Assembly (NCBI RefSeq): GCF_900066015.1
Contig: NZ_LN890655.1
Span: forward strand, 1,900,726-1,964,725
Source of the DNA: Candidatus Promineifilum breve
Lineage (GTDB): Bacteria; Chloroflexota; Anaerolineae; Promineifilales; Promineifilaceae
DNA length: 64,000 nucleotides
Direction: 5' to 3'
The translations under genes and the position numbers were made by a program. Below are positions 3,312 to 63,269 of the stretch, one piece after another; position 1 is the stretch's first letter; every line of letters starts with the position of its first letter. The notes beneath the pieces are model-generated. The model searched no databases and was not told the origin of the DNA. It saw nothing but the letters and a program-made list of their open reading frames with translations.

Positions 3312-3351
3312 CTCAGGTGCAACGCACTTCGGAAAGTGCGTCGCACCTGAG
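3312..3351. repeat. GGTGC...GCACC palindrome with CGGA loop
   Basis: Two 18-nt arms with one mismatch flank a CGGA tetraloop. Two further copies lie inside the glycosyltransferase gene at 58840-58931. It sits about 110 bp before the haloperoxidase start, in the long (293 bp) DUF92-haloperoxidase gap, where I see no gene. Confidence 0.85.
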
Positions 3352-7343: not shown

Positions 7344-7380
7344 GTTCTTCGTATTATAGAGGGGTAGGTTTTTTTTGCAT

Positions 7381-7525
7381 GCAGGGGAGCGGGGGAGCAG
7401 GGGAGCAGGGGAGAAAGAGGCGTCCCTCTCCCACCGCGAGGGGTTAGGGGAGGCCGTCCCCCTCCCACCGGGAGGGGTTAGGGGAGGGTCTTCTCCCCTG
7501 CACCCCTGCCCCCCTGCACCCCTGC
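7381..7525. repeat. Nested repeat: GCAGGGGA arms around CCCTC...GAGGG palindromes
   Basis: Tandem 8-nt GCAGGGGA-like units (7381-7413) face their complements TCCCCTGC (7491-7525). Inside them lie two copies of a CCCTCCCACCGGGAGGGG type palindrome. Members of the inner family recur inside the glycosyltransferase gene at 58561-58706 and 59314-59431. It fills the gap between permease and response regulator. Confidence 0.85.
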
Positions 7526-7528
7526 TTC

Positions 7529-8746
7529 TTATTCATACCGCAATGCCTCAATCGGCCGCAACCCCGCCGCCCGCCACGCCGGATACAGCCCGAAGACGAC
7601 GCCCACGCCGATGGCGAAGCCCGTCGCCAGGATGACCGTGCCCGCGTCCACAACCGTCACCAGATCGATGGCGCTGCCGGCCACGCGCGAGATCAGCCAG
7701 CCCAGGACGATGCCGATGAAGCCGCCGGTCAGGCTGAGAACCATCGACTCCAGCAGGAACTGGATCAGGATGTCGCGCCGCAGCGCGCCGACGGCCTTGC
7801 GGATGCCGATCTCACGCGTGCGCTCGGTGACCGACACCAGCATGATATTCATAATGCCGATGCCGCCGACCAGCAGCGAGATGCCGGCGATGGCCCCCAG
7901 AAAGGCGGTCATCAGGCCGGTGATCTGGTTGAAGGTCGCCAGCAGGTCGCTCTGGCTGATGAGGCTGAAATCGTCATCGTCGGCGTAGACGATGCCGTGC
8001 TCCTCGCGCAGCACCTCGGTGATCTGTTCCAAGGCGGCGGCGTTCTGCTCGGCCGTGGCCGAGGTGGCAACGATGCTGCTGACGGCCCGCTCGCCGCTGC
8101 GCGTCCGTTCGTTGCTCAGGCGGCTAGTGGCGGTGGTGATGGGCACGAAGAGGCCGTCGTCGCTGTTGCTGAAGCCGCCGCCCGACGACACCAGCACGCC
8201 GACGACCTCGTAGCTCGTGCCGTCGATCTTGATCGTCTGACCGACCGGGTAGCTATCGGGGAACAAATCTTCGGCCAGGCCCGACCCCAGCACGGCCACC
8301 CGCGCCTGCGTCGCCACGTCGGTCTCGGTCAGGCCGTCGCCCGACTGAAACTCGGTCAGGTTGTTGACGGCGAAGTAGTTGGCCGTGACGCCGGAGATGG
8401 ACGGGCGGGTGCTGTTGCCGCCGGCCGTCACCGGGGCCGAGGTTTGCACACTGGCCGCCACCTGATCGACGTCCGGGGCGCGCAGCCGATCCTGGAGCGC
8501 TTCCACGTCGGCCAGGCTGAGCGCCGGATAGCCGTCGCTGTTGTCGGGGTCGGTGGAGATGAGGATGAGGTTCGTGCCGATGGCCGAGATCTCGCTGTTG
8601 ATCGAGGCGCTGACGCCGTTGCCGATGCTCAGCAGGGCGATGACGGCGGCCACGCCGATGATGACGCCCAGCATGGTCAGGATGGCCCGCAGCTTGTTGG
8701 CCCGTAGGCTGTCGATGGCCGACAGCAGGCTTTCGCTCAGATTCAT
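7529..8746 (-). CDS. MacB/FtsX-type ABC transporter permease
   Basis: 405 residues. An N-terminal membrane helix follows the conserved [27 protein letters not shown] periplasmic-type MacB_PCD domain spans ~50-270. The C-terminal FtsX domain has three helices, including the family hallmark [20 protein letters not shown], and ends [12 protein letters not shown]. It overlaps the ATPase stop by 4 bp (ATGA). MacB-type transporters use mechanotransmission to move peptides, antibiotics or lipids outward together with an adaptor protein. Two adaptor genes lie upstream beyond the IS element. No TolC homologue is in the window, which fits a single-membrane envelope. Confidence 0.93.
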
Positions 8747-9519
8747 AATGCCCTCTCAATTGTAGGGCGGGATGGCATCCCGCCCTCTTCGGCCGTGGCG
8801 CGAACGACGATTCCGCCATCTCCAGCGGCCAGAGGCGGGTTGCCAACCCGCCCTACATGCTCCACTACCAGCCCGTCGCGGATCCAGATGACGCGTCCGG
8901 CGCGCGCGGCCACGTCCGGCTCGTGGGTGATGACGATGACCGTGTTGCCCTGCGCGTGCAGTTCCTCGAAGATGGCCATGATCTCGTCGCCGGTGTGGGT
9001 GTCCAGCGCGCCGGTCGGCTCGTCGGCCAGGATGATGGTCGGGTTGACGGCGATGGCGCGGGCGATGGCGACGCGCTGCTGCTGGCCGCCGGAGAGTTCG
9101 TCCGGCTTGTGGTGTTGCCGGTCGCCCAGGCCGACGCGCTCCAGGGCGGCGGCGGCGCGGCTCAGCCGCTCGGCGCGGTCGTAGCCGGCATACATGAGCG
9201 GCAGGGCCACCTGTTTGAGGGCCGGGGTGCGCGGCAGCAGGTTGAACTGCTGGAAGACGAAGCCGATGCGCTTGTTGCGGATGCGCGCCTGCTCGTCGTC
9301 GCTCAGACGACTCACGTCCTCGCCGCCCAGCAGGTAGTCGCCGCTGTCGGGGATGTCGAGGCAGCCGAGGATGTTCATCAGCGTGCTTTTGCCGCTGCCC
9401 GACGGCCCCATGATGGCGACGAATTCGCCGTCGGCGATGTCCAGGTCGAGGCCGCGCAGGGCATGGACGACGTTCTCGCCCATGTGGTAGGTCTTGGTGA
9501 TGTTTCGCATGTGGATCAT
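8743..9519 (-). CDS. MacB-type ABC transporter ATPase with repeat-derived C-terminal tail
   Basis: 258 residues. Walker [11 protein letters not shown]-loop FQQFNLLPR, signature LSGGQQQR, Walker [12 protein letters not shown] and H-loop ITHEP are all intact. This is the LolD/MacB subfamily that powers the adjacent permease. The family domain ends around residue 220. The last ~36 residues ([16 protein letters not shown] to the end) are encoded by two palindromic repeats at 8764-8784 and 8831-8856, so the tail looks like a late addition. The IS element begins 49 bp upstream of the ATP-binding gene's start and separates it from the adaptor genes. Confidence 0.93.
8764..8856. repeat. Two GGGCGGG-type palindromes inside the 3' end of the ATPase gene
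   Basis: GGGCGGGATG/CATCCCGCCC (8764-8784) and GGCGGGTTG/CAACCCGCC (8834-8852) are each near-perfect palindromes. Relatives occur between genes at 57094-57156 and inside a membrane protein gene at 61616-61636. Confidence 0.85.
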
Positions 9520-17168: not shown

Positions 17169-17756
17169 ATGAACAGAAATCCTTGGCATCGCCCGTTGGT
17201 AATTTTGGCGCTCGTCGCGGGGTTGCTGCTTGGCGCTTGCCAGTTAACCGAGACACAACCTATGATTGAACTCAGCCTCGACCGCCCCGAATATAACTCG
17301 GCCGTAGTGACTATCGAAGACGGCCGGGCCCTCATTGACGTGACCGACCGCCAAGGCATCAACGGCCTGAATGCCCGGCTGACCCAGGGTGAATGGCCGG
17401 CGGAGATCGTCGTCCGCCTGCCGTTGCGCGGGCTGGAGCAACTGTGGATTCACTACGGCGATCTGGCTATCTCGACCGGCGTCTCCAGCACCGGCGCGCC
17501 GACGCCACTCACTATCACAGTAGTGGACGAGGCCGGCAACACACAGAGCGCGTCACCGTCGGCCGACATCTATTACCCCAGCATTCGGGCCATTACGCCC
17601 GACGACACATTTGCCATCGGCCCATTGGCCGCCGGGGAGCGGCCGGCGATCCCCCTGCCCGAAGGCAGCACGATCGAGATCACCCTGCCGCCCGACTTCT
17701 TCCGCGAGAGCCACGACGCGTTCTCGATGCAGTGGATCGACTTCTTCAGAAATTAG
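17169..17756 (+). CDS. Small lipoprotein, function unknown
   Basis: 195 residues from ATG 17169. A positively charged start, a hydrophobic stretch (LVILALVAGLLL) and lipobox LLGAC mark it as a lipoprotein. The remainder is predicted beta-rich with no family I recognise; DRPEYNSAVVTIEDGRALIDVTD could be an immunoglobulin-like strand pair. Its stop codon TAG lies inside the first AATTAGG unit of the adjacent repeat, so the repeat has set the exact C-terminus (ends DFFRN). The ORF is open further upstream to 17073, but that part overlaps the acyltransferase gene. Confidence 0.65.
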   Translation: MNRNPWHRPLVILALVAGLLLGACQLTETQPMIELSLDRPEYNSAVVTIEDGRALIDVTDRQGINGLNARLTQGEWPAEIVVRLPLRGLEQLWIHYGDLAISTGVSSTGAPTPLTITVVDEAGNTQSASPSADIYYPSIRAITPDDTFAIGPLAAGERPAIPLPEGSTIEITLPPDFFRESHDAFSMQWIDFFRN

Positions 17757-17828
17757 GAATTACGAATTAGGAATTAGGAATCAAGAGCGCGTTCTCCATT
17801 CCTAATTCGTAATTCCTAATTCCTAATT
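17751..17828. repeat. TAGGAAT-type heptamer inverted repeat, possible bidirectional terminator
   Basis: About four 7-nt AATTAGG/AATTACG units (17751-17781) face complementary CCTAATT/CGTAATT units (17798-17828) across a short loop. It lies between two convergent genes and could form a hairpin terminator. Same family at 51611-51692, and inside both ABC exporter genes. Confidence 0.9.
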
Positions 17829-17831
17829 TTC

Positions 17832-18686
17832 TTACCGTCCCTGCCACCAATCATTGCGCGAGCGGGGGTCGAGGAAGCCGCCCCAGTCGCGGATGCCGAT
17901 CTGCACTTCCTCGGTCAGGGCCACGCCGAACGGCTGGTGGCCGCGCAGGGCCGGCAGTTGGTCGCGCCCGCCGGCATGGAGTTGGCGATAGAGGGCCAGC
18001 AGTTCCGGGTCGGTGCAGACGCCGTCGATGTGGAGCACGTAGCCGAAGAACTCATCCTCGCGGCCGATGTGGAGCGTCAGGTCTGACTCCCCGGCATAGA
18101 GCACCAGATATTCGTAGTCGCCCCCGATGTCGTAGCCGGAATCGGGGGTGTAGATCGTCTCGCCGCGCTGGACGCCCATGCCCAGCACGGTCACGCCCCA
18201 GGGGGAGTTGTTATCGACCGGGCAGTTGCAATCCTCCGACCAGTTATAGGCGCGGTAGGCGGTGGTGAAGGCCGGCGTGCGCAGGTCGCCGAACATGCCG
18301 GCGAATTGCGGCGCGCGGCTGTCATGCACCGGCCCCAGTTGCACCAGGTCGAGCGTCTCATCCACCTCGCCGTAACCGCGCACCCCCATATTGAGGTTGT
18401 GGTTGGTCTCCGGGTCCTCGGTTAGGGGCGGGCCGGACACGCTGAGCGCGCTATAGCCGCCGGGCAGGTTGCAATCCAGCGGCGGCGGCGGCTTCGACGC
18501 GGTGACGGCCGGCAGATAGAGGCGGCGGTCTTGGGCCTGCTCATCGGCCGCCAACGGCGATACTGAGCCGAACGCCGCCACCAGCGCCATGAGCAGGATT
18601 ACGAAACACGCGGTTGCCGGCCAAGAACCGGCAGTAACAAACGCCATCGCCCAGACGGGGCGACAGCGGTCAAGAATTCTTCTCAT
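17832..18686 (-). CDS. Secreted protein of unknown function with N-terminal RLYLPAV motif
   Basis: 284 residues from ATG 18686; GGAG lies upstream. A signal sequence is followed by the mature start, which includes RRLYLPAVTASKPPPPLDC. No family is recognised in the rest. It contains CNLPGGYSALSV, several Cys residues (SEDCNCPVDN, HIDGVCTD) that could form disulfides, and many Gly/Asp turns. RLYLPAV resembles the short YLP-type motif found in surface proteins of Chloroflexota in my recollection. The metallophosphoesterase at 46-47 kb ends in the related LFLPGVVSD. The gene is divergent from the HD-domain gene. Confidence 0.6.
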   Translation of the reverse strand: MRRILDRCRPVWAMAFVTAGSWPATACFVILLMALVAAFGSVSPLAADEQAQDRRLYLPAVTASKPPPPLDCNLPGGYSALSVSGPPLTEDPETNHNLNMGVRGYGEVDETLDLVQLGPVHDSRAPQFAGMFGDLRTPAFTTAYRAYNWSEDCNCPVDNNSPWGVTVLGMGVQRGETIYTPDSGYDIGGDYEYLVLYAGESDLTLHIGREDEFFGYVLHIDGVCTDPELLALYRQLHAGGRDQLPALRGHQPFGVALTEEVQIGIRDWGGFLDPRSRNDWWQGR

Positions 18687-24945: not shown

Positions 24946-24959
24946 GCGATAACCTCTAG

Positions 24960-25038
24960 CAGGGGAGCAGGGGGGCAGGGGTGCAGGGGAGAACGATCAC
25001 CCCTGCTCCCCTGCCCCCCTGCACCCCTGCTCCTCTGC
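24960..25038. repeat. GCAGGGGA-type inverted repeat between the two permease genes
   Basis: Octamer units GCAGGGGA/GCAGGGGG (24960-24991) face TCCCCTGC-type units (24999-25038). The hairpin lies between cotranscribed genes and could act as a partial terminator or mRNA stabiliser. Confidence 0.88.
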
Positions 25039-25041
25039 TTC

Positions 25042-26283
25042 TTATTCATACCGCAGCGCATCAATAGGATTCAGCCCGGCGGCGCGCGTGGCCGGGTAGA
25101 TGCCGAAGAACAGGCCCACAGCGGCCGAGAACAGGATCGCCAACGCCACCGAGTTCCAGGCCACCGTGGCGTCCAGCGTGTCGGACAGGGCGCTGATGAG
25201 ATAGGCCCCGGCCGCGCCCAGCAGCAGGCCGATCAGCCCGCCGATGGTGGACAGGATGATGGCCTCGGTCAGGAATTGCCACAGGATGTCGCGCCGCTTG
25301 GCCCCCACGGCCTTGCGCAGGCCGATCTCGCGCGTCCGTTCGGTGACGCTGACGAGCATGATGTTCATAATGCCGATGCCGCCGACCAGCAAGGAGATGC
25401 CGGCGATGACCCCCAGAAAGACGGTCAGCACGCCGGTGATCTGCCCCAGCGCGCCGACGACCTCGTCCTGGCTCAGGATGGTGAAGTCGTCCTCGTCGCG
25501 GAAGGTGACGCCGCGCGACTGGCGCAGGGCCAGCGTCATCTCGGCGATGGCCGCGTCCTGGCGCTCCTCGCTGATGACCTCGGCCAATATCTGATCGACG
25601 CGGAAGGAGCCATCCGGGCGACGGGCGGGGAAGAGGCGGCGCTGGGCCGTGTTGAGGGGCACGAGCACCAGGTCGTCCTGATCGTTGAAACCGGAGCCGC
25701 CCTTCTCTTCCATCAGGCCGATGACGCGGAAGTTGACGTTGTTGATGCGAATGGTCTGGCCGATGGGCAGTTCGCCGTCGGGAAAGAGTTGCTCGTAGAC
25801 GCGCTGGCCCAGCACGGCCACGCGAGCGGCCGAGGTGACGTCCTGCTCGGTGAAGAAGTCGCCCAGCACGGGCTGGAAGTCGCGGATGATGGTGAAATCG
25901 GGCGTCGTGCCGCTGATGGTCGTGCGCGCCTCCTCGCCACCGCGGGTGACGATGGCCGGCCGGTCATAGGTCGGCACGACGCGCAATAGGTCGGGCACGT
26001 TGAACGGATCGGCCAGCGCCTCGTAATCGTCGTTGGTCAGTTCGGCGCTGCTGCGGCCGGGCATGAACTGGTTGGCGTCAGGCTGGCCGGGGATGACGAA
26101 GAGCAGATTATTGCCCAGCCCCTCGAACTCGCTGACGACGACCTGCTGCACGCCCTCGCCCACCGACACCAGCGTGATGACCGCGGCCACGCCGATGATG
26201 ATGCCCAGCATGGTCAGGATGGCCCTGAGCTTGTTGGCGATCAGGCTACGGAGGGCGAGGCGGATGCTTTCGATCAGGTTCAT
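25042..26283 (-). CDS. MacB/FtsX-type ABC permease
   Basis: 413 residues. The MacB fold is intact: an N-terminal helix ([21 protein letters not shown]), an external domain with SGTTPDFTIIRDFQPVLGDFFTEQD, and a C-terminal FtsX domain with [20 protein letters not shown] and the ending AAGLNPIDALRYE. It sits between the ATPase gene and a second permease gene of the same family. Expected role: export of a peptide, drug or lipid, driven by the ATPase at 26389-27150 and the adaptor at 27159-28733. Confidence 0.93.
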   Translation of the reverse strand: MNLIESIRLALRSLIANKLRAILTMLGIIIGVAAVITLVSVGEGVQQVVVSEFEGLGNNLLFVIPGQPDANQFMPGRSSAELTNDDYEALADPFNVPDLLRVVPTYDRPAIVTRGGEEARTTISGTTPDFTIIRDFQPVLGDFFTEQDVTSAARVAVLGQRVYEQLFPDGELPIGQTIRINNVNFRVIGLMEEKGGSGFNDQDDLVLVPLNTAQRRLFPARRPDGSFRVDQILAEVISEERQDAAIAEMTLALRQSRGVTFRDEDDFTILSQDEVVGALGQITGVLTVFLGVIAGISLLVGGIGIMNIMLVSVTERTREIGLRKAVGAKRRDILWQFLTEAIILSTIGGLIGLLLGAAGAYLISALSDTLDATVAWNSVALAILFSAAVGLFFGIYPATRAAGLNPIDALRYE

Positions 26284-26294
26284 AATAATCCAGC

Positions 26295-26388
26295 GCAGGG
26301 GGGCAGGGGAGCGGGGGAGCAGGGGAGCGCCGGCGTCCCGCCGGCTCTTCTTCTCCCCTGCATCCCTGCACCCCTGCTCCCCTGCCTC
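26295..26388. repeat. Nested repeat: GCAGGGGA arms around a GCCGGCG palindrome
   Basis: GCAGGGGA-type units at 26295-26329 and their complements at 26352-26388 enclose GCCGGCGTCCCGCCGGC. The right edge touches the ATPase stop codon (26389-26391). Confidence 0.85.
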
Positions 26389-27150
26389 CTAAACATGCAA
26401 CGCCTCATCCGACGGCCGCGCGCTCTGCCCGGCCACCAACGGTTGCGGCACGATTTCGTCGCGGACGATCACGCCATCGGCCAGGGTGATGATGCGCCGC
26501 GTGTGGCGGGCGATCCACGGGTCGTGGGTGACGAACAGGATGGTGATGCCCTGCTCGCCGTTGAGCCGCTGGAAGATCGCCATCACTTCCGTGCCCGACT
26601 TGCTGTCCAGATTGCCGGTCGGCTCGTCGGCCAGGATGATGGCCGGCTCGTTGACCAGGGCGCGGGCGATGGCGACGCGCTGCTGCTGGCCGCCGGAGAG
26701 TTCGCTGGGCCGGTGGTCGATGCGGTCGCCCAGGCCGACCATCTCCAGGGCGCGGCGGGCGCGTTCGTGGCGCTGGCCCTGGGCGGCGTAGATGAGCGGC
26801 AGTTCGACCTGTTGCACGGCGGGCATCCGCGGCAACAGGTTGAAATTCTGGAAGACGAAGCCGATCTTGCGGTTACGGATGTCGGCCAGATCGTCGTCGC
26901 TGAGGGCGCTGACGTCGGTGCCGTCCAGCAGATAGCTGCCGGTGCTCGGCTGGTCGAGCGCGCCGAGCATGTTCATCATCGTCGACTTGCCGGAGCCGGA
27001 CGGCCCCATGATAGCCACGAATTCGCCCGCGCCGATCTCGACCGAGACGCCGTTCAGCGCGCGGACTTCGTGCTCGCCCATCTGGTAGACCTTGGTCATC
27101 TCGCGGATGACGATGACCGGCGGCCGGCCGTTGGATGCAATATCGCTCAT
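26389..27150 (-). CDS. MacB-type ABC transporter ATPase
   Basis: 253 residues. All motifs are intact: Walker [11 protein letters not shown]-loop FQNFNLLPRM, signature LSGGQQQR, Walker [12 protein letters not shown] and H-loop VTHDPWIARHT. The Y-aromatic A-loop is in TKVYQMGEHEV. The gene starts 8 bp after the adaptor's stop, in the same transcript, and is followed by two permeases. In the LolD/MacB subfamily the ATPase usually works as a homodimer beneath a permease dimer; here it may serve a heterodimer. Confidence 0.95.
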   Translation of the reverse strand: MSDIASNGRPPVIVIREMTKVYQMGEHEVRALNGVSVEIGAGEFVAIMGPSGSGKSTMMNMLGALDQPSTGSYLLDGTDVSALSDDDLADIRNRKIGFVFQNFNLLPRMPAVQQVELPLIYAAQGQRHERARRALEMVGLGDRIDHRPSELSGGQQQRVAIARALVNEPAIILADEPTGNLDSKSGTEVMAIFQRLNGEQGITILFVTHDPWIARHTRRIITLADGVIVRDEIVPQPLVAGQSARPSDEALHV

Positions 27151-41985: not shown

Positions 41986-43835
41986 GCAATCTCCCCATGC
42001 CAAATCCGCTGCATCTCCGGCGAAGACGCCAGCAATTCATCCAGCGTCCCCTGCGCGGCGACGCGGCCGTTCTCCATGACGATAATGTGATCGGCGCGAC
42101 GCAGGGCCGGGCGGCGGTGGCTGACCACCAGGCAAGTCGGCCGCGCCGCGCCGGCCTCGTCCACCAGTCGTTCCCACAGCAGTTGCTCCGTCTCCACGTC
42201 GAGGGCGCTGGACAGGTCGTCGAAGACCAGCAGTTCGGCGTCGCGCACCAACATGCGGGCCGCCGCCGCCCGCTGCACCTGGCCGCCGGACAGGCGCACG
42301 CCGCGCGGCCCGACAAGCGTCTCCAGCCCGGCCTCCAGCGTGGCGATGTCCGGCGCCAGCACGGCCGCCCGTAGCGCCTCGCCCAGGTGGTCGTCGGGCA
42401 GGCCCAGCAGGATGTTGTCGCGCAACGTCTCGCTGAACAGGCGCGGCACTTGCGGCGTGTAGGCCGCGCGCGGCGGCGTGAAGTGGCTGGCCGGATCGAC
42501 CACCGGCGTGCCGTTCCAGCACATCCGGCCGCCGGATGGCGGCAGCAGCCCCAGCAGCGCCCGCAGCAACGTCGTCTTGCCGCTACCCACCCGGCCGGTG
42601 ATGACGGTGAAAGAGCCGCGCGGCAGCGTGAACGAGACATCGGCGATGCCGGTGGTGGGTGGCGAAGGAGCGTCCCGCTCTTCATTCGTCATTCGTAATT
42701 CGTCATTCGTCATTTCCCCCTGCGCTTCGTGCCGGTACATTAGCCCCTCCACTTCCAACCGCTCCAACCGGTCGGCGGCCGTTTTGCTTGGCAAAGACAG
42801 CGGCGGGACGTTGCCCTTCTCATAGATCGGCCGGTGGGCGACAATGCTCTCCGGTGGCGCGTCGGGGTGCATCTCTTGCAGGCGGTCGAGCACCACCCGC
42901 TGCTGGGCGATCTCCGACATGAAGCTGCCCAGGTTGGCCGGGAAGCTGACGGCGATGGTCAGATAGCTGACGAACAGGGTGAAGTCGCCGATGGTCATGG
43001 CCCCCGATTGCAGCGATTGCCCGGCCAGCAGCACGACCAGGGCGACGGCGATGTCGCCCATACTCTGCCCGGCGGAGAAGGAGAGCGTGACGAAGGTGTT
43101 CTGGCGCACGCCGGCGTGGCGGCGCGCTTCGCTCAGGGTATTGAAGTAACGCAGCACACCACCCTCGGCGTCGGCGATCTTGACCGCCTGCACGCCGCCC
43201 AGGATTTCGCCCAGGAAGCCGGTGACGCGGCTGCCGGCGACGCGGGTGGCCCGGTCGTAGAGCAGGAAGCGCCGCCAGGCAAAGCGGTTGATGAAGAAGA
43301 CGGCCAGCAGCGGCAGGGCAGCCACCAGGGTGATCCACGGGTTGACGCGGGCCATGATGGCGATGGCGAAGACGAAGAAGATGGCCTCGCCGATCTCCTG
43401 CGGCAGCCAGGTGGGGAAGTCGGCGAAGTCGCCCACGTCGCGCTCCAGGCGGTGGATGGCGTCGCCCGACTCGACGGGCATGGGCCGGGCGGCCGGCTTG
43501 GCCAGAATGTTGTGCATGAAGTTGACGCGCATGAGCACGCCGTTGATGCTGCGCACCATCCAGCCGCCCCACTCGTAGCCGACGCCCAAAATGCCCCGGC
43601 TAAGTTCTACAGCGACGAACAGGGCCAACAGGGTGACAATGCCGAAGGTGGCCGGGGCCGCGCCGGTCAGCTCGTCGAAGAAGCGCCGGGTGATGAGGCC
43701 GGGGAGCAGTTCGCTGACGATGAGCACGACGCCGAAGATCATATTGGCGGCGAAGGGCCACGGCCGGTAGCGGATGAGCGCCCACGTGCCGCGCCAGACG
43801 GGAAGCGTGTTGTTGGTAGTTTGTATTGTATTCAT
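41982..43835 (-). CDS. ABC exporter subunit with degenerate catalytic site
   Basis: 617 residues from ATG 43835; the frame is open far upstream but this overlaps the partner gene. Six membrane helices (1-320) precede the nucleotide-binding domain. Walker A GRVGSGKT is at ~414-421, signature LSGGQ at ~515-519, and Walker B LLVFDD at ~535-540, with Asp instead of the catalytic Glu. H-loop VVSHRRP is intact. Residues ~373-390 ([17 protein letters not shown]) come from a CGTCATT-type heptamer repeat inserted in the first beta hairpin. It pairs with the next gene as a heterodimer of the TM287/288 type. Confidence 0.93.
42680..42715. repeat. CGTCATT/CGTAATT heptamers inside an ABC exporter gene
   Basis: Five heptamers encode [11 protein letters not shown]-type residues without breaking the frame. 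Confidence 0.85.
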
Positions 43836-43853
43836 AGTATGTTTTCCTGCCGT

Positions 43854-43930
43854 GCGGGGGAGCGGGGGTGCAGGGGAGCAGGGGAGAAAAACTCTTTCCC
43901 CCCTGCTCCCTTTCTCCCCTGCTCCCCTGC
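43854..43930. repeat. GCAGGGGA-type inverted repeat between exporter subunits
   Basis: Octamer arms at 43854-43888 and 43899-43930 with a short A-rich loop separate the two subunit genes. Confidence 0.85.
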
Positions 43931-43941
43931 ATCTTCGCTCC

Positions 43942-45918
43942 TCATGCCAACACCTCCTCCAGACCCGTCTGGAGCAACCGGTAGAAGCGCGACGCGGGGT
44001 CGGCAGCCAGGGCGGCGCGGGGGCCGTGCTCGATGACCCGGCCGTTTTCCAGAATGAGGATGTCGTCGGCGCGCAGCACCGTGCGCAGGCGGTGGGCGAT
44101 GATGATGCCCGTGCGCCCCTCCAGCAGGCGGTCGATGGCCCGCTCCAGCCGTTGTTCCGTGCCGGGGTCGAGGCGCGACGAGGCTTCATCGAGCACCACC
44201 AGCCGCGGGTCGCGCAGGAAGACGCGGGCCAGGGCCAGCAGTTGCCCCTCCCCGGCCGACAGCCCCTTGCCGCCGCCCTCCAGCACCGTATCCAGTCCGG
44301 CGGGCAGGCCGCGCAACCAGTCGTCCAGGCCGAGGGTCGCCAACGCGGCCAGGATGCGGCCGTCGTCGATGGCCGGCCGATCGGGGTCGTAGTTGTTGAA
44401 CAGGGTCAGGTTGTCGCGCACGGTGGCAGCGAAGAGTTGCACGTCCTGGGTCACCAGCCCGACGTGGCGGCGCAGTTCGCCCAGGGGGACGGTGCGGATG
44501 TCGGCGGAGACGACAGACGACGGACGACGGACGGCGGATGGGGCATTGCTATCCGTTGTCTGTGGGCCGTGGTCCGTCGTCTCGCCGGCTACCAGTCGAA
44601 TCGCGCCCGCGTCCACGTCATAGAGACGAAATAACAGCCGCGTCAGGGTCGTCTTGCCGCTGCCGGTGCGGCCGAGCACGCCCAGCACGCGGCCGGGGGC
44701 GAGGGTGAAGGTGACGTCGTGGAGAACGGTGGGGGTGGCGGGTCGCGGGTCGCGGGTGGCGGGTGGCGCGCCTAGTGGCGTGCCCTCTTCATTCGTAATT
44801 CCTAATTCGTAATTCGTAATTTGCCGGTCCTTATAAGCGAACGATACCCCATCGAAGGCCACGCCCGGCGCGCCCGGCGGCAGGACGGCCGCCGCGCCGG
44901 ACGCATCGACTACCTCCGGCCGCAAATCGAAAAACTCGCGGGTGCGGTTGACGCTCGCCAGGGCGCGCTGGATGCCGGCCAGTTCGCGGCGAATGGAATC
45001 GAGCGGCGACTCCAGCAAGCCGACGTAGAAGACCAGCAGGAAGACCGTGCCGATGGTCATCGTCCCGGCGCGATAGGCCAGGGCGGCGATGCCCATCGTG
45101 GCCGCCACCGCCACGGCGAAGAGCACCCAACTGGTGGAGCTGATCGCCGTGCCGAGCGTGTGGGTGCGGGTGCGCAGCGTGGCGTAGCTATTCAGCAGCG
45201 GGTAGAGGCGCTGCATGACGTAGCCCGCGCCGCCGTTGGGCAGCACGTCTTCGGTGCCGGTCACGTGCTCCTCCAGGAAGCCAAGCAGTTCGGCCGAAGC
45301 CTGGCTGATACGGATGTAGAGGCGCACCATGCGCTGCTGGATGACGCGAAAGAGGGTCAGCATCAGCAGCGCATAGACCAGGGCCACCAGGCCGACGCGC
45401 CACTCCTCCACGAACAGCAGCACGAGGATGCCGGCCACCAGCAGGCCGTTGCCGATGAGGCTGACGACGATCTCCGAAAAGTACTCGGCCAACTGGCCCA
45501 CGTCGCTATCGATGCGCTCGATGAGTTCACCGGGGGTGCGCAGCTTGTGGAAGCCCATGTCGAGACGCAGCACGTGGGCCGTCAGGTCGCCGCGCAGGGC
45601 GTTGGTCGTGGCCCAGCCCAGGTCTTCGGTCAGGTAGACGGTGATGAGATAGAGGATCTTCTGGGCCAGCACGGCGGCAAAGAACAGCCCGGCGATCAGG
45701 TAGAGACGGTTCGCTGAACCGTCTCCTCCGCCTGAACCGTCTATGGCCGCGCCCCCGCCGGACACGGTATCGACAAAGCGGCCGAGCAGTTGCGGCCCCA
45801 GGAGTTGCAGGCCAATGCCGGCCAGCAGCAGGACGACCAGCAGCGCCACGCGACCGCGATAGGGCCGCAGATAGTGGCGCAGCATGGCGATGGGTTGAGT
45901 TGGGATCGATTGATTCAT
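43942..45918 (-). CDS. ABC exporter subunit with canonical Walker B
   Basis: 658 residues, longer than the usual ~580-600. Six membrane helices precede the ATPase domain ([22 protein letters not shown] at the start, cited as [17 protein letters not shown]). The A-loop Tyr is in FAYKD, Walker A is GRTGSGKTT, the signature is altered (GLSAGEGQ instead of LSGGQ) and Walker [14 protein letters not shown] keeps the Glu. Two loops (residues ~366-396 and ~446-471) are made of heptamer repeats. With the partner it forms one working and one degenerate ATP site. First structural gene after the long leader. Confidence 0.94.
44507..44582. repeat. GGACGAC-type heptamers inside the ABC exporter gene
   Basis: GACGACGGACGACGGACGG and its partial complement CCGTGGTCCGTCGTC flank a short spacer and encode residues ~446-471. 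Single arms of the same family lie upstream at 45951-45990. Confidence 0.85.
44733..44823. repeat. GGCGGGT and GAATTAC heptamers side by side inside the ABC exporter gene
   Basis: GGCGGGT-type units (44733-44770) and ATTCGTA/ATTCCTA units (44786-44823) both lie in the open frame and encode the loop [15 protein letters not shown] plus [13 protein letters not shown]. Confidence 0.85.
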
Positions 45919-51593: not shown

Positions 51594-51610
51594 TCTTGCA
51601 CCTCCAGAAT

Positions 51611-51692
51611 AACGAATTAGGAATTAGGAATTAGGAATTAGGAATGAAGAACGCTCTCCATTCGTAATTCGTAATTCCTAATTCGTAATTCT
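51611..51692. repeat. TAGGAAT-type heptamer inverted repeat between atpD and atpC
   Basis: Five AATTAGG units (51611-51645) pair with CGTAATT/CCTAATT units (51660-51692); the right edge touches the atpD stop codon. Confidence 0.92.
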
Positions 51693-53171
<1,479 letters not shown>

Positions 53172-55865: not shown

Positions 55866-55908
55866 GCGTTCAACCTCCTAGGGTGTCATGGGAATGTGAT
55901 TGTCTGAG

Positions 55909-55982
55909 CGCAGGGGAGCAGGGGAGCAGGGGAGCGGGGGTGATCTTTCGCCCCTGCTCCCTTTCTCCCCTGCACCCCTGCG
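55909..55982. repeat. GCAGGGGA-type inverted repeat between the M42 peptidase gene and atpA
   Basis: Octamer arms at 55909-55941 and 55950-55982 with a short loop fill the gap; the ends are about 25 bp from the upstream of atpA's ribosome site. Confidence 0.9.
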
Positions 55983-55996
55983 TCGTGTTTTTCATG

Positions 55997-58206: not shown

Positions 58207-60972
58207 ATGGCTGCCCACGGCGGGGAACCCAACCGGCGGCGTCTCGTCGCTGTGCTCATCTTGTTGCCGGCGCTCATCCTGCTGGGCTTCGCTCTGCGCG
58301 TCCATAACCTCGACGCCTTCAGCTTCTGGACCGACGAGGGGCTGACGCCGGAGCGCTCCGGCTATGCCATCGGCCAGATTTTGCGCAATGAGATTCTCAT
58401 CCAGGGTGTCGTGACCACCGACACCCACCCGCCACTCTACTACCTGATCATCCACGTCACCCGGCAACTGTTCGGCACGAGTGATTTCGCCTTTCGCTAC
58501 CCGTCGGTGCTGTTCGGCGTGTTGCTCATCCCGCTCATGTATCAACTGGCGCGGCGGATGCCCTCCCCTAACCCCTCCCTTCGGGAGGGGGATCAGACCC
58601 CCGCCCTCTCCGGGAGAGGGCATCCGGCTCCCTCTCCCAAGGGGAGAGGGCTGGGGAGAGGGCATCTGGCTCCCTCTCCCCTTGGGAGAGGGTTGGGGAG
58701 AGGGTCTTCCGCCGGCCTCATCATCGCCCTCCTCGCCGCCGTCAACCCCCTACAAATCTACTACAGCCAGGAAGCGCGGATGTACACCCTGCTCGTGCTG
58801 CTGGTCACGGCCATGAGCTACACCCTCTGGCGCGCCCTGGGTGCGATGCACTTTCCGAAGTGCGTCGCACCTTCCGGCACTCCCCGGCGAGGTGGTGAGG
58901 TGCAACCCACTTCGGAAAGTGGGTCGCACCTGTGGCGACGGTTTCTCTTGTATAGTGTCCTGGCCGCGTTGGCCGTCTACACCCACTATACGGCCGCCTT
59001 TCTCATCGCTGCCCAAGCCTTTTTTTGGGGTTGGATTCTATGGCGGGCCGGGATGCGGCGGCTCATCCTCGGCGCGGCCGTCGTCGCCGCGCTGGTCGCC
59101 ATCCCGCTCATCCCCTACACCATCCCCCGCCTGCTGACCGGGGCCGAGGCCAACTACTACGCCGTTTCGCCGCTGACCATGCTGCTCGACGTGGTGCGCT
59201 TCTTCCACCTCGGCCTGACAGTCGATTTCGCCCAACCCCTCATACGCGTCCTGAACCTGTTGGCGTTTGGGCTGCTGTTGCTCGGCCTGTGGGCGGTTGG
59301 CTCGGCCCAACAAAGACCCTCCCCTAACCCCTCCCGGAGGGAGGGGGATCAGACTCCCTCTCCCCCCGGGAGAGGGTTGGGGAGAGGGCGTCCGGCTCCC
59401 TCTCCCTCCGGGAGAGGGTTGGGGAGAGGGCTTCTTCCCCGCCTCTTCCTACTAACCTGGCTCCTCTCCCCCGTCCTCGGCCTCATGCTCGGCTCCCTAC
59501 TCTTCAAACCGATGTACCAGGGCGTCCGCCACATCATGGCCGCCAGCCCGGCCTTCCTGTTGCTGCTGGGTTTCGGCGTGTGGGCCATCTGGAACTGGCT
59601 GCCCCGTAGTTGGCGCGAACCCCGCCCGGAACCGGACGAGGAACTAACCGGCTGGACGGCCTGGGTGGCCGAGGCCCCGCGCGCCAATCCGCTGGCCCTC
59701 ATCCCGTTGAGCCTGTTACTCATCGGCGCGGCCGTGGCCCTGGTCAACCTCTACACCGACCCGGCCTACGTCAAGGACGATTTTCGAGCCATCATTCGCT
59801 TTATCGAGACACGGGCGGGCGATCGCGACGTAATCGTCTACAATAATGCCGTGTTGCTGCCTCTGCACGACCACTACCGCCGGCGGCCCGACATCGCCGT
59901 CACCGCCCTGCCGGCCTACCCCCAAGTTGCCACCGGCCGCGAGCCGGAACTGGCCGCGCTGGCCGCCGAATTCGACCGCGTGTGGTTCATCACCGACCCC
60001 CCGGCCGACGGCCGCGACGACGACCGTCTCATCCAGGGCTGGCTCGATGCCAATCTGATCGAGGCCCTCAACCGCATCTTCCCGGCGCGCACGACGGTGG
60101 CGCGGGTAATCGGCTATGCGACGCCGACCGACGGCCTGTCAACGACCGCCGTCAATGGCGAGTGGGACGGGCTACCGGCGCTCACCGGCGCGGCCTTTGA
60201 CCCGGAGCTGGCCCTGCCAACCTTGTGGGTCGATCTGGTCTGGGAAGGCCAACCGCCGCCGGCCGCGGCCGTCCTGGTCTTCTCCCTGACCGATCCGGCG
60301 GGCGTGGAGCAGTTTCGCGAAGCCCAGCAATTGCTGCGCGATGACGCCTACCCCTGGGACACGGCCGCGCCCAACCGCCTGAGCTATGCCCTGCCGCTGC
60401 CGCCCGGCCTGCCGCCGGGAACCTATACCCTGGCCGTGGCCCCCGATGGCGGCGATCCACTCGCCCTCGGCCCGGTGACCATCGCTCCCACGACGGCCTG
60501 GCCCATTCCCCCCGAACAACTCTTTCCCGAGGAGTTGATGGCCCGCGGCCGGCCGGTGGCCGTGGGCGGCCAACCCCCGGCCGGCGGCCTCGCCCTGGCC
60601 GCCGTCATCCCCTGGGACGACAGCGTAATCGCCGGCAACAACCTGCCGCTGACGGTCTACTGGCGCGCCGGCGACGCTGGGGCCGACTTGCGCGACATGC
60701 GCTACCTGCTGGAAGTCGTCGGGACGGACGGCGCGGTGCTGCGCGCCCAGGAAGCCCGGCCCGGCGCGGCCTGGCTGGACGCCGCCCCGCCCGGCGCGCT
60801 GCTGCGCGAGATCGTCGCCCTCTACTATCGCCCGGAGACGCCGCCCGGTCGCTACCGGCTGCGCTGGACGCTGCTCGACGGCGACGCGCCTATCGGGGAA
60901 CCGGTCTGGGCCGGAGAGATCGCTGTCGAAGCCCCGGAGGCCGCGCCCGCACCGGGGGAGGCCGGGCCATGA
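58207..60972 (+). CDS. GT-C (family 39/ArnT-like) membrane glycosyltransferase with repeat-encoded loops
   Basis: 921 residues from ATG 58207, long for the family because of a C-terminal soluble region (~470-920) and three loops made of DNA repeats. The N-terminal domain has many membrane helices and the family acidic site in FSFWTDEGLTPERSG, with HPPLYYLIIHVTRQ. It would move a sugar from a polyprenyl phosphate to an acceptor outside the cell. The repeat loops lie at residues ~119-167 (PSPKGRGLGRG-type), ~211-242 and ~370-409, all between membrane helices. A soluble beta-rich part follows VKDDFRAIIRFIETRAGDRD. It overlaps the next gene by 4 bp. Confidence 0.88.
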   Translation: MAAHGGEPNRRRLVAVLILLPALILLGFALRVHNLDAFSFWTDEGLTPERSGYAIGQILRNEILIQGVVTTDTHPPLYYLIIHVTRQLFGTSDFAFRYPSVLFGVLLIPLMYQLARRMPSPNPSLREGDQTPALSGRGHPAPSPKGRGLGRGHLAPSPLGRGLGRGSSAGLIIALLAAVNPLQIYYSQEARMYTLLVLLVTAMSYTLWRALGAMHFPKCVAPSGTPRRGGEVQPTSESGSHLWRRFLLYSVLAALAVYTHYTAAFLIAAQAFFWGWILWRAGMRRLILGAAVVAALVAIPLIPYTIPRLLTGAEANYYAVSPLTMLLDVVRFFHLGLTVDFAQPLIRVLNLLAFGLLLLGLWAVGSAQQRPSPNPSRREGDQTPSPPGRGLGRGRPAPSPSGRGLGRGLLPRLFLLTWLLSPVLGLMLGSLLFKPMYQGVRHIMAASPAFLLLLGFGVWAIWNWLPRSWREPRPEPDEELTGWTAWVAEAPRANPLALIPLSLLLIGAAVALVNLYTDPAYVKDDFRAIIRFIETRAGDRDVIVYNNAVLLPLHDHYRRRPDIAVTALPAYPQVATGREPELAALAAEFDRVWFITDPPADGRDDDRLIQGWLDANLIEALNRIFPARTTVARVIGYATPTDGLSTTAVNGEWDGLPALTGAAFDPELALPTLWVDLVWEGQPPPAAAVLVFSLTDPAGVEQFREAQQLLRDDAYPWDTAAPNRLSYALPLPPGLPPGTYTLAVAPDGGDPLALGPVTIAPTTAWPIPPEQLFPEELMARGRPVAVGGQPPAGGLALAAVIPWDDSVIAGNNLPLTVYWRAGDAGADLRDMRYLLEVVGTDGAVLRAQEARPGAAWLDAAPPGALLREIVALYYRPETPPGRYRLRWTLLDGDAPIGEPVWAGEIAVEAPEAAPAPGEAGP
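58561..58706. repeat. Tandem CCCTCTCC-type palindromes inside the glycosyltransferase gene
   Basis: At least four GAGAGGG/CCCTCTC palindromes in tandem, in frame, encoding repeated PSP-GRGLGRG peptides. Same family as the inner part of 7381-7525. Confidence 0.92.
58840..58931. repeat. Two GGTGC...GCACC palindromes inside the glycosyltransferase gene
   Basis: Palindromes at 58840-58871 (loop TCCG) and 58898-58931 (loop CGGA), each with ~15-nt arms, separated by 26 bp; the frame stays open. Related to 3312-3351. Confidence 0.92.
59314..59431. repeat. Second block of CCCTCTCC-type palindromes in the same gene
   Basis: Three palindromes in tandem encode PSPPGRGLGRG and PSPSGRGLGRG loops, nearly the same peptide as the first block. 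Confidence 0.92.
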
Positions 60973-63269
60973 GCCGCCGCCGCGCCTTGCTGGCGCTCAT
61001 CCTGCTGGGCTATCTGGCGATCACGCTGGCCTATGGGGTGCTCAACCCGCTCTTCGAAGCGCCCGACGAGCATTGGCACTTTTTCACCGCCGTGTCCATC
61101 GCCGAAACCGGCCGCCTGCCGCGGGTAGAGGAGCCACCTGACCCATTGCTGGGCCAGGAAGCGGCCCAACCACCGCTCTATTACGCCCTCGGCGCGGCGC
61201 TGCTGGCCCCGTTCGACACCACCGGCTGGCGCGAGGCCATCTGGGAGAACCCCTACGCCTGGATTGGCGACGCCTCGGCCCTGGCGAACGTCAACCGCAT
61301 GGTGCATACCCCGGCCGAGGCGTGGCCGTGGCAGGGCTGGGCGCTGGCCGCTCATTTTTTGCGTGTCCTCTCGACCCTGTTCGGATTGGGCACGCTGCTG
61401 TGTATCTACGGCAGCGCCCGCCTGATATGGCCGGAGAGCACCACCCGGCCGCTGATGGCGACGGCGCTGGTGGCTTTTCTGCCGCAATTCAATTTCGTCC
61501 ATGCCGCCGTCAGTAACGACGCGCTCATTACCTTCCTGTGTAGTCTGGCGCTGTATCAATTGATCTGGTTGTGGAATGGGTTGGGAACCCGTCCGTCGTC
61601 AGGCAAGGGCGAAGCGGGCGGGTTGCCAACCCGCCCTACAATGGTGCGGTTGGTGTTGTTGGGCATCACCATCGGACTGGCGGCGCTGAGCAAGAACGCC
61701 GGTGTGTTGCTGCTGCTCTATAGCCTGGGGTTCCTGGCGGTCGTGGCCTGGCGCGCCGGCCGCCCGCGGGCGATCATTCCGGCCGGGTTGCTGGTGGCCG
61801 CGCCGGCGCTGCTCATCGCCGGGTGGCTGTGGGCGCGCAATCAGGCCCTCTACGGCGATTGGACGGCCACCGCGCCGTTCATCGCCATCGCCGGCGGCGA
61901 CCGGGGCTACACGCTGTGGCAGGCGTTGGGCGAATGGCGCGGGCTGTTGGCCTCGTTCGTCGGCGTGTTCGGCTGGTTCAATCTGCGCCCGCCGGGATGG
62001 GTGTATTGGGTGTGGCTGGCAATCACCGGGTTGGCCGTAGCCGGTGGGCTGGTCTGCGCAGCGCAGGCTTACCGGCGGCAGCGTAGGACGGCCGCCCGCC
62101 GCTTACCGCTGAACGCCGACTGGCTCCTGGCCGCTCTGCTGGCCGTCTGGCCGCTGCTGGTGCTGGCCGGGCTGCTGGCCTTCATGCTGCGCACCGAGGC
62201 GGCCCAGGGGCGGCTGCTCTTCCCCGCCATTTTGCCCCTTTCGCTGGGGACGGCCTGGGGATTGGCCGGCTGGAGCCGCTGCGCACCGCAGGCTCTGGGC
62301 AAGTTCAATCGCCGCCTGGCCCCGCTATTGGCCCTGCTGGCCCTGGCGACCAGCGTCTACAGCCTACTCTACGTCATCGAACCCGCCTACCGGCCGCCGC
62401 CGACCATCGCCGCCATTCCGGCCGGGGCGCGGCGCGTGTTGCCCGAATTAGTCGAGCGCGGCCAGGGTATTGCGCTGCTGGCGGCCGAGGTCGATACCGA
62501 CACCGCCCGGCCGGGCGACGTCATCTGGCTGACGCTCTATTGGCAGGCCGACGAGCCGCCGGCCGAACCGCCGGAATTCGTGCTGGAGCTGTTCGGGCGG
62601 GAGGTGGAGCGCATCGCCAACCTGCACAGCTATCACGGCCGCGGCCTCTACCCGGCCACGCTGTGGCCGCCGGGGGCGGTCATCGCCGACCGCTTCGCCG
62701 TGCGCATCGACCCGGCGGCCGAAGCGCCGGTGATGGGGCGCGTCTTCGCTCGGGTCGAAGGCGGCGCGCCGGGCATCGAGGTCGCCACGGTGAAAATCGA
62801 GCCACTGGAGCCGCCGCCCGTGCCCGATAGCTGGGCAGCCGAACTGGGCGACCACATCGCCCTGGTCAACGCCACCATCCGCCCGGCCCAAACCACGGCC
62901 GGCCAGCGCGTCCAGGTGCTGGTGCGCTGGTACGTGCCCGTCGGCGCGCCTGACCGCGATTACACCACGCTCATCCACCTCGGCCCGCCCGACGCGCCGC
63001 CGCTGAGCACCGGCGATAGCCCGCCACTGGGTGGCGCCTATCCCACCAGCGCCTGGCGCAACGGCGAGACGATCGACGACCGCTACTTCCTGCTCATTCC
63101 GGGCGGTCTGGCCCCCGGCCCCTATCCGGTGTGGATCGGCCTCTATGACCCGGCCACCGGCCAGCGCCTGCCGGTGGTGGTCGAGGGCGAATTGCAGCCC
63201 AACGGCGTCTATCTGGCGGGCTGGGTCGAGGTGGTCTGCGCCGGCGAGGATGCCGATTGTGCGCCCTGA
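60969..63269 (+). CDS. DUF2142-like membrane protein, probable GT-C glycosyltransferase
   Basis: 766 residues, beginning 4 bp inside the previous stop (ATGA). About eleven membrane helices occupy the first ~500 residues. The acidic EAPDEHWHFFTAVSIAETG motif after the first helix and QPPLYYALGA resemble DUF2142 and ArnT-like proteins. A soluble beta-rich domain (from ~505, ELVERGQGIALLAAEVDTD) resembles the C-terminal region of its neighbour (DLVWEGQPPPAAAVLVF / TLYWQADEPP patterns), suggesting the two arose by duplication. Residues ~203-224 derive from a repeat. The pair may form a complex in surface glycan synthesis. Confidence 0.82.
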   Translation: MSRRRALLALILLGYLAITLAYGVLNPLFEAPDEHWHFFTAVSIAETGRLPRVEEPPDPLLGQEAAQPPLYYALGAALLAPFDTTGWREAIWENPYAWIGDASALANVNRMVHTPAEAWPWQGWALAAHFLRVLSTLFGLGTLLCIYGSARLIWPESTTRPLMATALVAFLPQFNFVHAAVSNDALITFLCSLALYQLIWLWNGLGTRPSSGKGEAGGLPTRPTMVRLVLLGITIGLAALSKNAGVLLLLYSLGFLAVVAWRAGRPRAIIPAGLLVAAPALLIAGWLWARNQALYGDWTATAPFIAIAGGDRGYTLWQALGEWRGLLASFVGVFGWFNLRPPGWVYWVWLAITGLAVAGGLVCAAQAYRRQRRTAARRLPLNADWLLAALLAVWPLLVLAGLLAFMLRTEAAQGRLLFPAILPLSLGTAWGLAGWSRCAPQALGKFNRRLAPLLALLALATSVYSLLYVIEPAYRPPPTIAAIPAGARRVLPELVERGQGIALLAAEVDTDTARPGDVIWLTLYWQADEPPAEPPEFVLELFGREVERIANLHSYHGRGLYPATLWPPGAVIADRFAVRIDPAAEAPVMGRVFARVEGGAPGIEVATVKIEPLEPPPVPDSWAAELGDHIALVNATIRPAQTTAGQRVQVLVRWYVPVGAPDRDYTTLIHLGPPDAPPLSTGDSPPLGGAYPTSAWRNGETIDDRYFLLIPGGLAPGPYPVWIGLYDPATGQRLPVVVEGELQPNGVYLAGWVEVVCAGEDADCAP
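61577..61640. repeat. GGGCGGGTTG palindromes inside the DUF2142-like gene
   Basis: GGGCGGGTTGCCAACCCGCCC (21 nt; arms 61616-61625 and 61627-61636) with an upstream GGGTTGGGAACCC, in frame between two membrane helices. Same family as 8764-8856 and 57094-57156. Confidence 0.9.

Follow-up and report, generated by a model that had tools for sequence, protein, structure and literature searches.

In-frame palindromic repeat insertions between the membrane helices of two adjacent glycosyltransferase-type genes of Candidatus Promineifilum breve

The Rickettsia palindromic elements (RPE) are short selfish repeats that sit within the reading frames of numerous unrelated genes and leave these intact (Ogata et al. 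2000, 2002). PMC10969869 and PMC4316617 describe several RPE families in one genome, each element encoding, in the words of the review, a conserved peptide. A comparable behaviour has been described for GTAG/CGTC REP sequences, which occur as singles, dimers and clusters in frame in genes, including those of a DNA polymerase and a tRNA synthetase; the carriers of GTAG repeats include Chloroflexi, and the recB genes of two Xanthomonas species hold unlike REPs in approximately the same position (PMC3733652). Both the Rickettsia and the REP-rich genomes raise the question of whether it is the peptide or the position that is tolerated, and the case described here, one gene followed through five sister species, points to position. 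Dispersed repeats of another kind, the STRR sequences of filamentous cyanobacteria, are short tandemly repeated heptanucleotides. Heptanucleotide repeats of the TAACTGA type are also described for the Beggiatoaceae (PMC4679880).

The window, that is the whole stretch of 64,000 nucleotides analysed here (C1:1900726-1964725), belongs to a genome of 5.03 Mb in three contigs, which is 99.96% complete. Host gene 1 (58207..60972, plus strand) encodes a GT-C type membrane glycosyltransferase (PMT_2) of about 920 aa from the ATG at 58207 and bears three insertions. It scores 29.2 bits against the PMT_2 profile, above the curated cut-off of 26.1, and matches PF13231 in the profile search with E=1.3e-6, while a sequence profile search for a solved (PDB) relative returned none, the best E being 0.36. 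Its orthologues or homologues were found in all of the 59 genomes searched, and eleven proteins make up the alignment used below, in which the DEG of the W.DEGLTP motif, whose catalytic role is putative, is invariant across the 11 orthologues. The last ~100 aa of the orthologues are missing from gene 1. Its divergence from the G004 orthologue by codon position is 0.255/0.195/0.402, which indicates a gene under constraint. Host gene 2 (60969..63269, plus strand) encodes a membrane glycosyltransferase-like protein of 766 aa with weak matches to DUF2142 and PMT, each under its own curated cut-off.

The initial annotation had reported four repeat insertions in these adjacent genes, and all four blocks are indeed present, their limits being refined here from the family matches. 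Insertion 1 (58561..58704, plus strand, 144 nt) is a family A composite in the TM2-TM3 loop, formed by an inverted A2 half, a GATCAGA spacer and then A units spaced by 42 nt. Insertion 2 (58840..58931, plus strand, 92 nt), in the loop after TM4, is a family B hairpin in two inverted copies, and insertion 3 (59317..59430, plus strand), in the TM7-TM8 loop, is again a family A composite of exactly 114 nt, or 38 codons. Insertion 4 (61577..61640, plus strand, 64 nt) lies in a short inter-helix loop of gene 2 and contains two family C hairpins, the second of which is GGCGGGTTGCCAACCCGCC followed by CTAC, the GTAG foot on the other strand. Family A consists of GGGAGAGGGYTRGGGAGAGGG, its hairpin partner CCCTCTCCC and A2, a related half in inverted orientation (GGGAGGGGTTAGGGGAGGG); families B and C have the sequences GTGCGACGCACTTTCCGAAGTGCGTTGCACC and GTAG-GGCGGGTTGGCAACCCGCC, respectively. 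Insertion 4 reads as the latter on the minus strand and so shows the 20-40 bp palindrome with GTAG at one end that is typical of GTAG REPs. Family A is organised as a BIME-like composite, since the 114-nt arrangement of inverted units and a GATCAGA-type spacer is found in several places. Both ORFs run uninterrupted through the four blocks, which are read in frame, as had been claimed.

It had further been proposed that the blocks belong to palindromic families also found between genes, and this is borne out by three dispersed families with counts beyond the chance controls. In the sampled part of the genome (about 516 kb of stretches around repeat matches), BLAST found 135, 115, 153 and 54 matching stretches outside the host genes for insertions 1 to 4, at ~52, 60, 55 and 33 places respectively. 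Genome-wide, the 21-mer of family A with at most one mismatch has 78 matches compared to 0-1 for its reversed control, a search that gives the usable control for this family because its motif nearly equals its own reverse, which made the first reversed-pattern control uninformative. Family B has 61 matches against 0 and family C 129/123 against 12/8. Within the window, two tandem A2 units lie at 7421..7492 (plus strand) and a family B copy at 3315..3347 (minus strand), both outside the host genes. Family C copies at 8766..8852 (C1:1909491-1909577, with no strand assigned) have coding flanks on one strand in different frames, hence they do not represent an in-frame insertion.

Comparison with the orthologues shows the host loops without these blocks. 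At site 1, between LARR and GLIIALLAAVNPLQ, the window has 79 aa and G003, G004 and G005 have 33 aa; the segment of site 2 measures 75 aa compared to 49 aa in the repeat-free orthologue of G022, from another genus; at site 3 there are 113 residues against 75 in G004, whose loop is empty. The loop of gene 2 that holds insertion 4 is short in other genera and contains a different palindrome in G005. The exact insert peptide of the window was found in none of the aligned orthologues; at site 1, G002, which itself carries family A, has a short related peptide, TPSPLGRG. Given that the orthologue loops are short or differently filled, the four blocks are insertions, and their described location between membrane helices is upheld. 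Hydropathy averaged over the alignment of gene 1, single-sequence hydropathy being too strict, places sites 1 to 3 and a fourth site of this gene, which is filled in congeners, all between helices. In GT-C enzymes the long first loop, here the one with the W.DEG motif, lies outside. Taken with the hydropathy, the positive-inside rule and an inner N-terminus, this suggests that these four sites face the cytosol with no insert in the outer loops, and that the inserts of the membrane domain are probably clear of the extracytoplasmic GT-C catalytic loop.

The frame on each flank of the fetched matches was then called by a codon model trained on the genome itself. Among 61 family A blocks, 22 lie in an open frame running through both sides, 8 have same-strand flanks in different frames (a frame shift or a gene border), one keeps the frame with a stop, and the remainder have one coding flank or none. 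The frame is kept in 23 of the 31 blocks with same-strand coding flanks, where one third is expected (p=4e-6). In-frame blocks number 3/54 for family B and 3/37 for family C, the latter partly sampled. Tandem units are spaced by a multiple of three in 13/13 cases inside genes and in 10/24 others (p=3.5e-4), or by block in 9/9 and 4/10 (p=0.011); the classification is biased toward in-frame blocks, yet it does not force the unit spacing. The proposed test for a preference of genic copies for multiples of three thus has a positive outcome. Furthermore, in line with a stop filter, genes are enriched in the stop-free TTG/CTG variant, with 24:7 by unit in genes versus 12:36 elsewhere (p=7e-6) and 15:3 versus 10:14 by block (p=0.011). 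A separate gene-seeking subfamily defined by this variant was also considered and rejected, its excess being unclear by block and in the frames open to both variants. A composite with TTG can be read without a stop in three of the six frames (S0, S1 and AS0), one with TTA in S0 only. The copy at C2:197395, whose antisense reading uses frame AS1, has CGA where the consensus has TGA. As judged from the sequences, the usable frames are set by stops; the notion of an "only stop-free frame" is right in that stops limit the choice but too strict, three of the six frames being open to the composite with TTG.

Within gene 1 the two family A blocks do encode nearly the same peptide, as was first noticed, but this does not extend to other genes, in which other frames are used. 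Indeed, the genic family A copies elsewhere in the genome use all six element frames, and at block level the use in 19 cases (5/4/1/1/6/2) does not differ from uniform (chi-square p=0.21), so the frame is not the same each time and genic copies show no preference for one. By type, 9 genic units read GRGLGRG, 10 GEGxGEG, 10 PLPNPLP and 4 others. The most direct evidence comes from insertion 3, which aligns over all of its 114 nt with C2:912953 (91%) and C2:197395 (89%): this composite spells PSPNPS..GRGLGRG in gene 1, PPPTPP..GEGWGEG at C2:912953 and, on the antisense strand, DPLPNPLP at C2:197395. The reading frame of one and the same element therefore differs between all three genes and its peptide is not conserved, which speaks against the selection for the peptide that had been envisaged. 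Searches of the literature for the peptides or the DNA motif found nothing relevant.

In the sister species, the same loops of gene 1 are filled by unrelated repeats. Site 2, which holds family B in the window, contains AATTACG heptamers (LRITNYELRIGNG) in G004, ATACGAR heptamers (IRNTKYEIRNT type) in G003 and G005, and GACCACG/GTCGTCC heptamers (TADGRRRTTDHG) in G002. Site 3 has family A in the window, an A-like hairpin with CCCCTGC units in G002, ATACGAR with an inverted partner in G003 and G005, and nothing in G004. Site 4 is empty in the window and G004 and is occupied by a hairpin in G005, by GAGAGGC units in G003 and by another palindrome with CCTGGAA units in G002. In the soluble part, site 5 bears GGTCAGT units in G002 and CCCCTGC-type units in G003 and G005, and site 6 is filled in G005 only. 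The repeats track genome content, and the three families for which genus-wide counts were made are abundant where they are inserted: family A has 78 matches in the genome of the window, 24 in G007, 15 in G002 and 0 in the other five; ATACGAR 137 in G003, 64 in G005 and 0-5 in the others; AATTACG 206 in the genome of the window, 121 in G004 and 4-52 in the others, all congener counts being lower bounds given their fragmented assemblies.

The gene tree within the genus supports the grouping of G003 with G005 (100) and little else, and events common to a shared family were consequently counted once. An approximate hand parsimony count gives a minimum of 13 insertion events at 6 sites. Under random placement over at least 16 loops, 6 or fewer distinct sites would be expected with p<=0.013, and over 12 loops with p=0.06. 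Not every event needs to be independent, since G000 and G002 may have inherited one family A insert at site 1. Judged by the unrelated repeats of the sister species, these loops behave as recurrent safe landing spots and not as sites of a selected peptide. A wider proposition, for and against which we see the chances as balanced, is that cytosolic glycosyltransferase loops throughout the genus, together with linkers of other enzymes, change in length mainly through mobile repeats, the same few loops capturing whichever family is active in the lineage, so that unrelated repeats converge there as in a natural random-insertion scan.

The best explanation, in which we have high confidence, is that mobile REP/BIME-like palindromic repeats of families A, B and C are subject to a filter of frame, stops and structure. 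Selfish hairpin repeats would disperse over the genome, for the most part into intergenic positions, and would occasionally land in a gene, where they could persist only if their net length were a multiple of three, if the frame entered were free of stops and if the site were a structurally free loop or linker; any later gain or loss of units inside genes would go on in threes. The insert peptides would then be translated and functionally neutral. Alternatively, these Pro/Gly/Arg peptides may be under selection because they do something useful themselves, for example as flexible or membrane-near cytosolic linkers, with the DNA repeat as their source only. The shared frame of the two family A blocks in gene 1 and the fit of Arg-rich peptides to cytosolic loops agree with such a function, but we consider it highly improbable given the reading of the same element in three frames elsewhere, a frame use not different from uniform, and the congeners' loops, which are empty or hold unrelated peptides. 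Clearly more probable than this, though still unlikely, is an ancestral repeat in the loops, into which later repeats were inserted or by which it was replaced, so that the shared position would reflect inheritance and not a repeated independent choice. Different families do often lie side by side, as at 7364-7533 of the window and in the combined hairpin and CCCCTGC units of G002 at site 3, and the family A inserts of G000 and G002 at site 1 begin with similar letters. However, sites 1 and 3 in G004 and site 1 in G003 and G005 are empty, their loops resembling what other genera have, and the four unrelated families at site 2 show no remnants of a common one.

Two further readings were considered. 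The host genes might be decaying and collect inserts without constraint, to which the missing C-terminal ~100 aa of gene 1 would correspond; yet the frames stay open across four inserts, the divergence excess falls on third codon positions, the orthologues are conserved across the genus, and inserts also occur in the only full-length alaS, which makes decay a shade less credible again than selection for the peptide. The inserts might also be removed or skipped by RNA excision, ribosome bypass or protein splicing and so be absent from the protein, and hairpin-rich inserts in essential genes may resemble bypassed elements. This we hold to be the least probable of all, as frame, stops and multiples of three would not matter under removal, yet all are kept.

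Against this background, the mobile repeats favoured here resemble RPE in that they are inserted in frame in genes and also lie between genes, their hosts being unbroken, a likeness that concerns their behaviour. They differ in that the genome is of 5 Mb, high in GC and from another phylum, that the units are shorter and in tandem, and that the frame in which one element is read varies, unlike the conserved peptide per element stated for RPE. Family C shares the GTAG foot with the GTAG REPs, whereas no GTAG/CGTC foot was found beside the family A and B hairpins in the copies inspected, which sets these two apart from REPs with a foot. Moreover, here a single gene presents several re-used loops with unrelated families, heptamer arrays included, across five congeners. 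As in REPtron/RAYT systems, a REP-associated tyrosine transposase gene (REP_Tyr_transpos, NF047646 over cut-off; L163:1079-1968, C1:556 kb) is flanked by the GTAG-tagged palindromes GTAGGTGGAACTTCCAGTTCCACC, and an IS200-type Y1 transposase gene (L161:908-2150, C2:284 kb) lies in a REPtron-like array made up of a dozen palindromes that fall into three kinds (GTGGGATAAATCCCAC, AACCGGCTGAAGCCGGTT and GGCGGGTTTGAACCCGCC). The GTAG palindromes or GGCGGGTTTGAACCCGCC hairpins flanking these RAYT/IS200-like genes have arms alike to those of family C and a different loop, and it is plausible that family C is moved by the RAYT/IS200-type Y1 transposases of the genome. Unlike in those systems, family A or B flanks the Y1 transposase at none of the three loci in the genome. 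The repeats of the congeners recall STRR and the TAACTGA repeats of Beggiatoaceae by their seven-base tandem units in many dispersed copies, but their arrays are often inverted pairs, lie also inside genes and consist of different heptamers. In-frame palindromic repeats as such are already known; what is new is how many loops of a single gene have been re-used across a genus, that hairpin and heptamer families occur together in them, and that one element is shown to be read in three frames.

Tolerance of such inserts reaches other enzymes, including the essential alaS, dnaE and purH products. Family A lies in frame in alaS, a match to TIGR00344 with 850 bits that is the sole one over cut-off genome-wide, two others being partial; that an insert persists in the one full-length alanyl-tRNA synthetase is a strong argument for the tolerance of such peptides and illustrates its extent. 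Other in-frame hosts include DNA polymerase III alpha (dnaE) in its C-terminal half, PurH, a MoaD-MoaE fusion (at the linker), HyuA, methylmalonyl-CoA mutase, a TPP enzyme, a ROK kinase, an amidase, a creatininase and one further PMT_2 membrane enzyme. The paralogous AAA/TPR proteins of L140 (C2:161242) and C2:912953 have a pair of family A inserts in common, identically placed but with different unit numbers, which indicates that insert-bearing genes were duplicated and that units were gained or lost in frame. Genes that take up unrelated repeats in the same inner loops constitute natural insertion scans that mark permissive protein sites, and repeat-derived peptides mislead annotation and homology searches.

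Several minor observations concern repeats at other places. The C-terminal part of dnaE (L167:1457-4000, C1:2189156-2191699) has in-frame peptides of several repeat types, namely a family A2-type copy, GCAGGGG units, NYELRITNEE (AATTACG type) and TTDERR repeats. In the phylum, family A is patchy, being present in 15/301 sampled genomes. Its hairpin-plus-tail motif was also met in exact form in Pseudomonas, Bradyrhizobium, Cupriavidus, Myxococcota, Verrucomicrobia and others (contig scan, L237-L354), and 3/112 classified copies of the motif in other bacteria lie in frame in genes according to locus-trained codon models, a low number that speaks against the favoured explanation, although these models are less sensitive. 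In the window, inverted pairs of AATTCGT/AATTACG heptamer arrays occupy 17750-17832, 42676-42718, 44783-44839 and 51601-51697, a family with ~206 genome-wide matches that is found inside genes of the congeners too. Inverted pairs of GCAGGGGA and TCCCCTGC 8-mer arrays are located at 7364-7533, 24951-25046, 26278-26393, 43837-43946 and 55885-55989, partly beside family A copies, which suggests a nesting of different repeat families.
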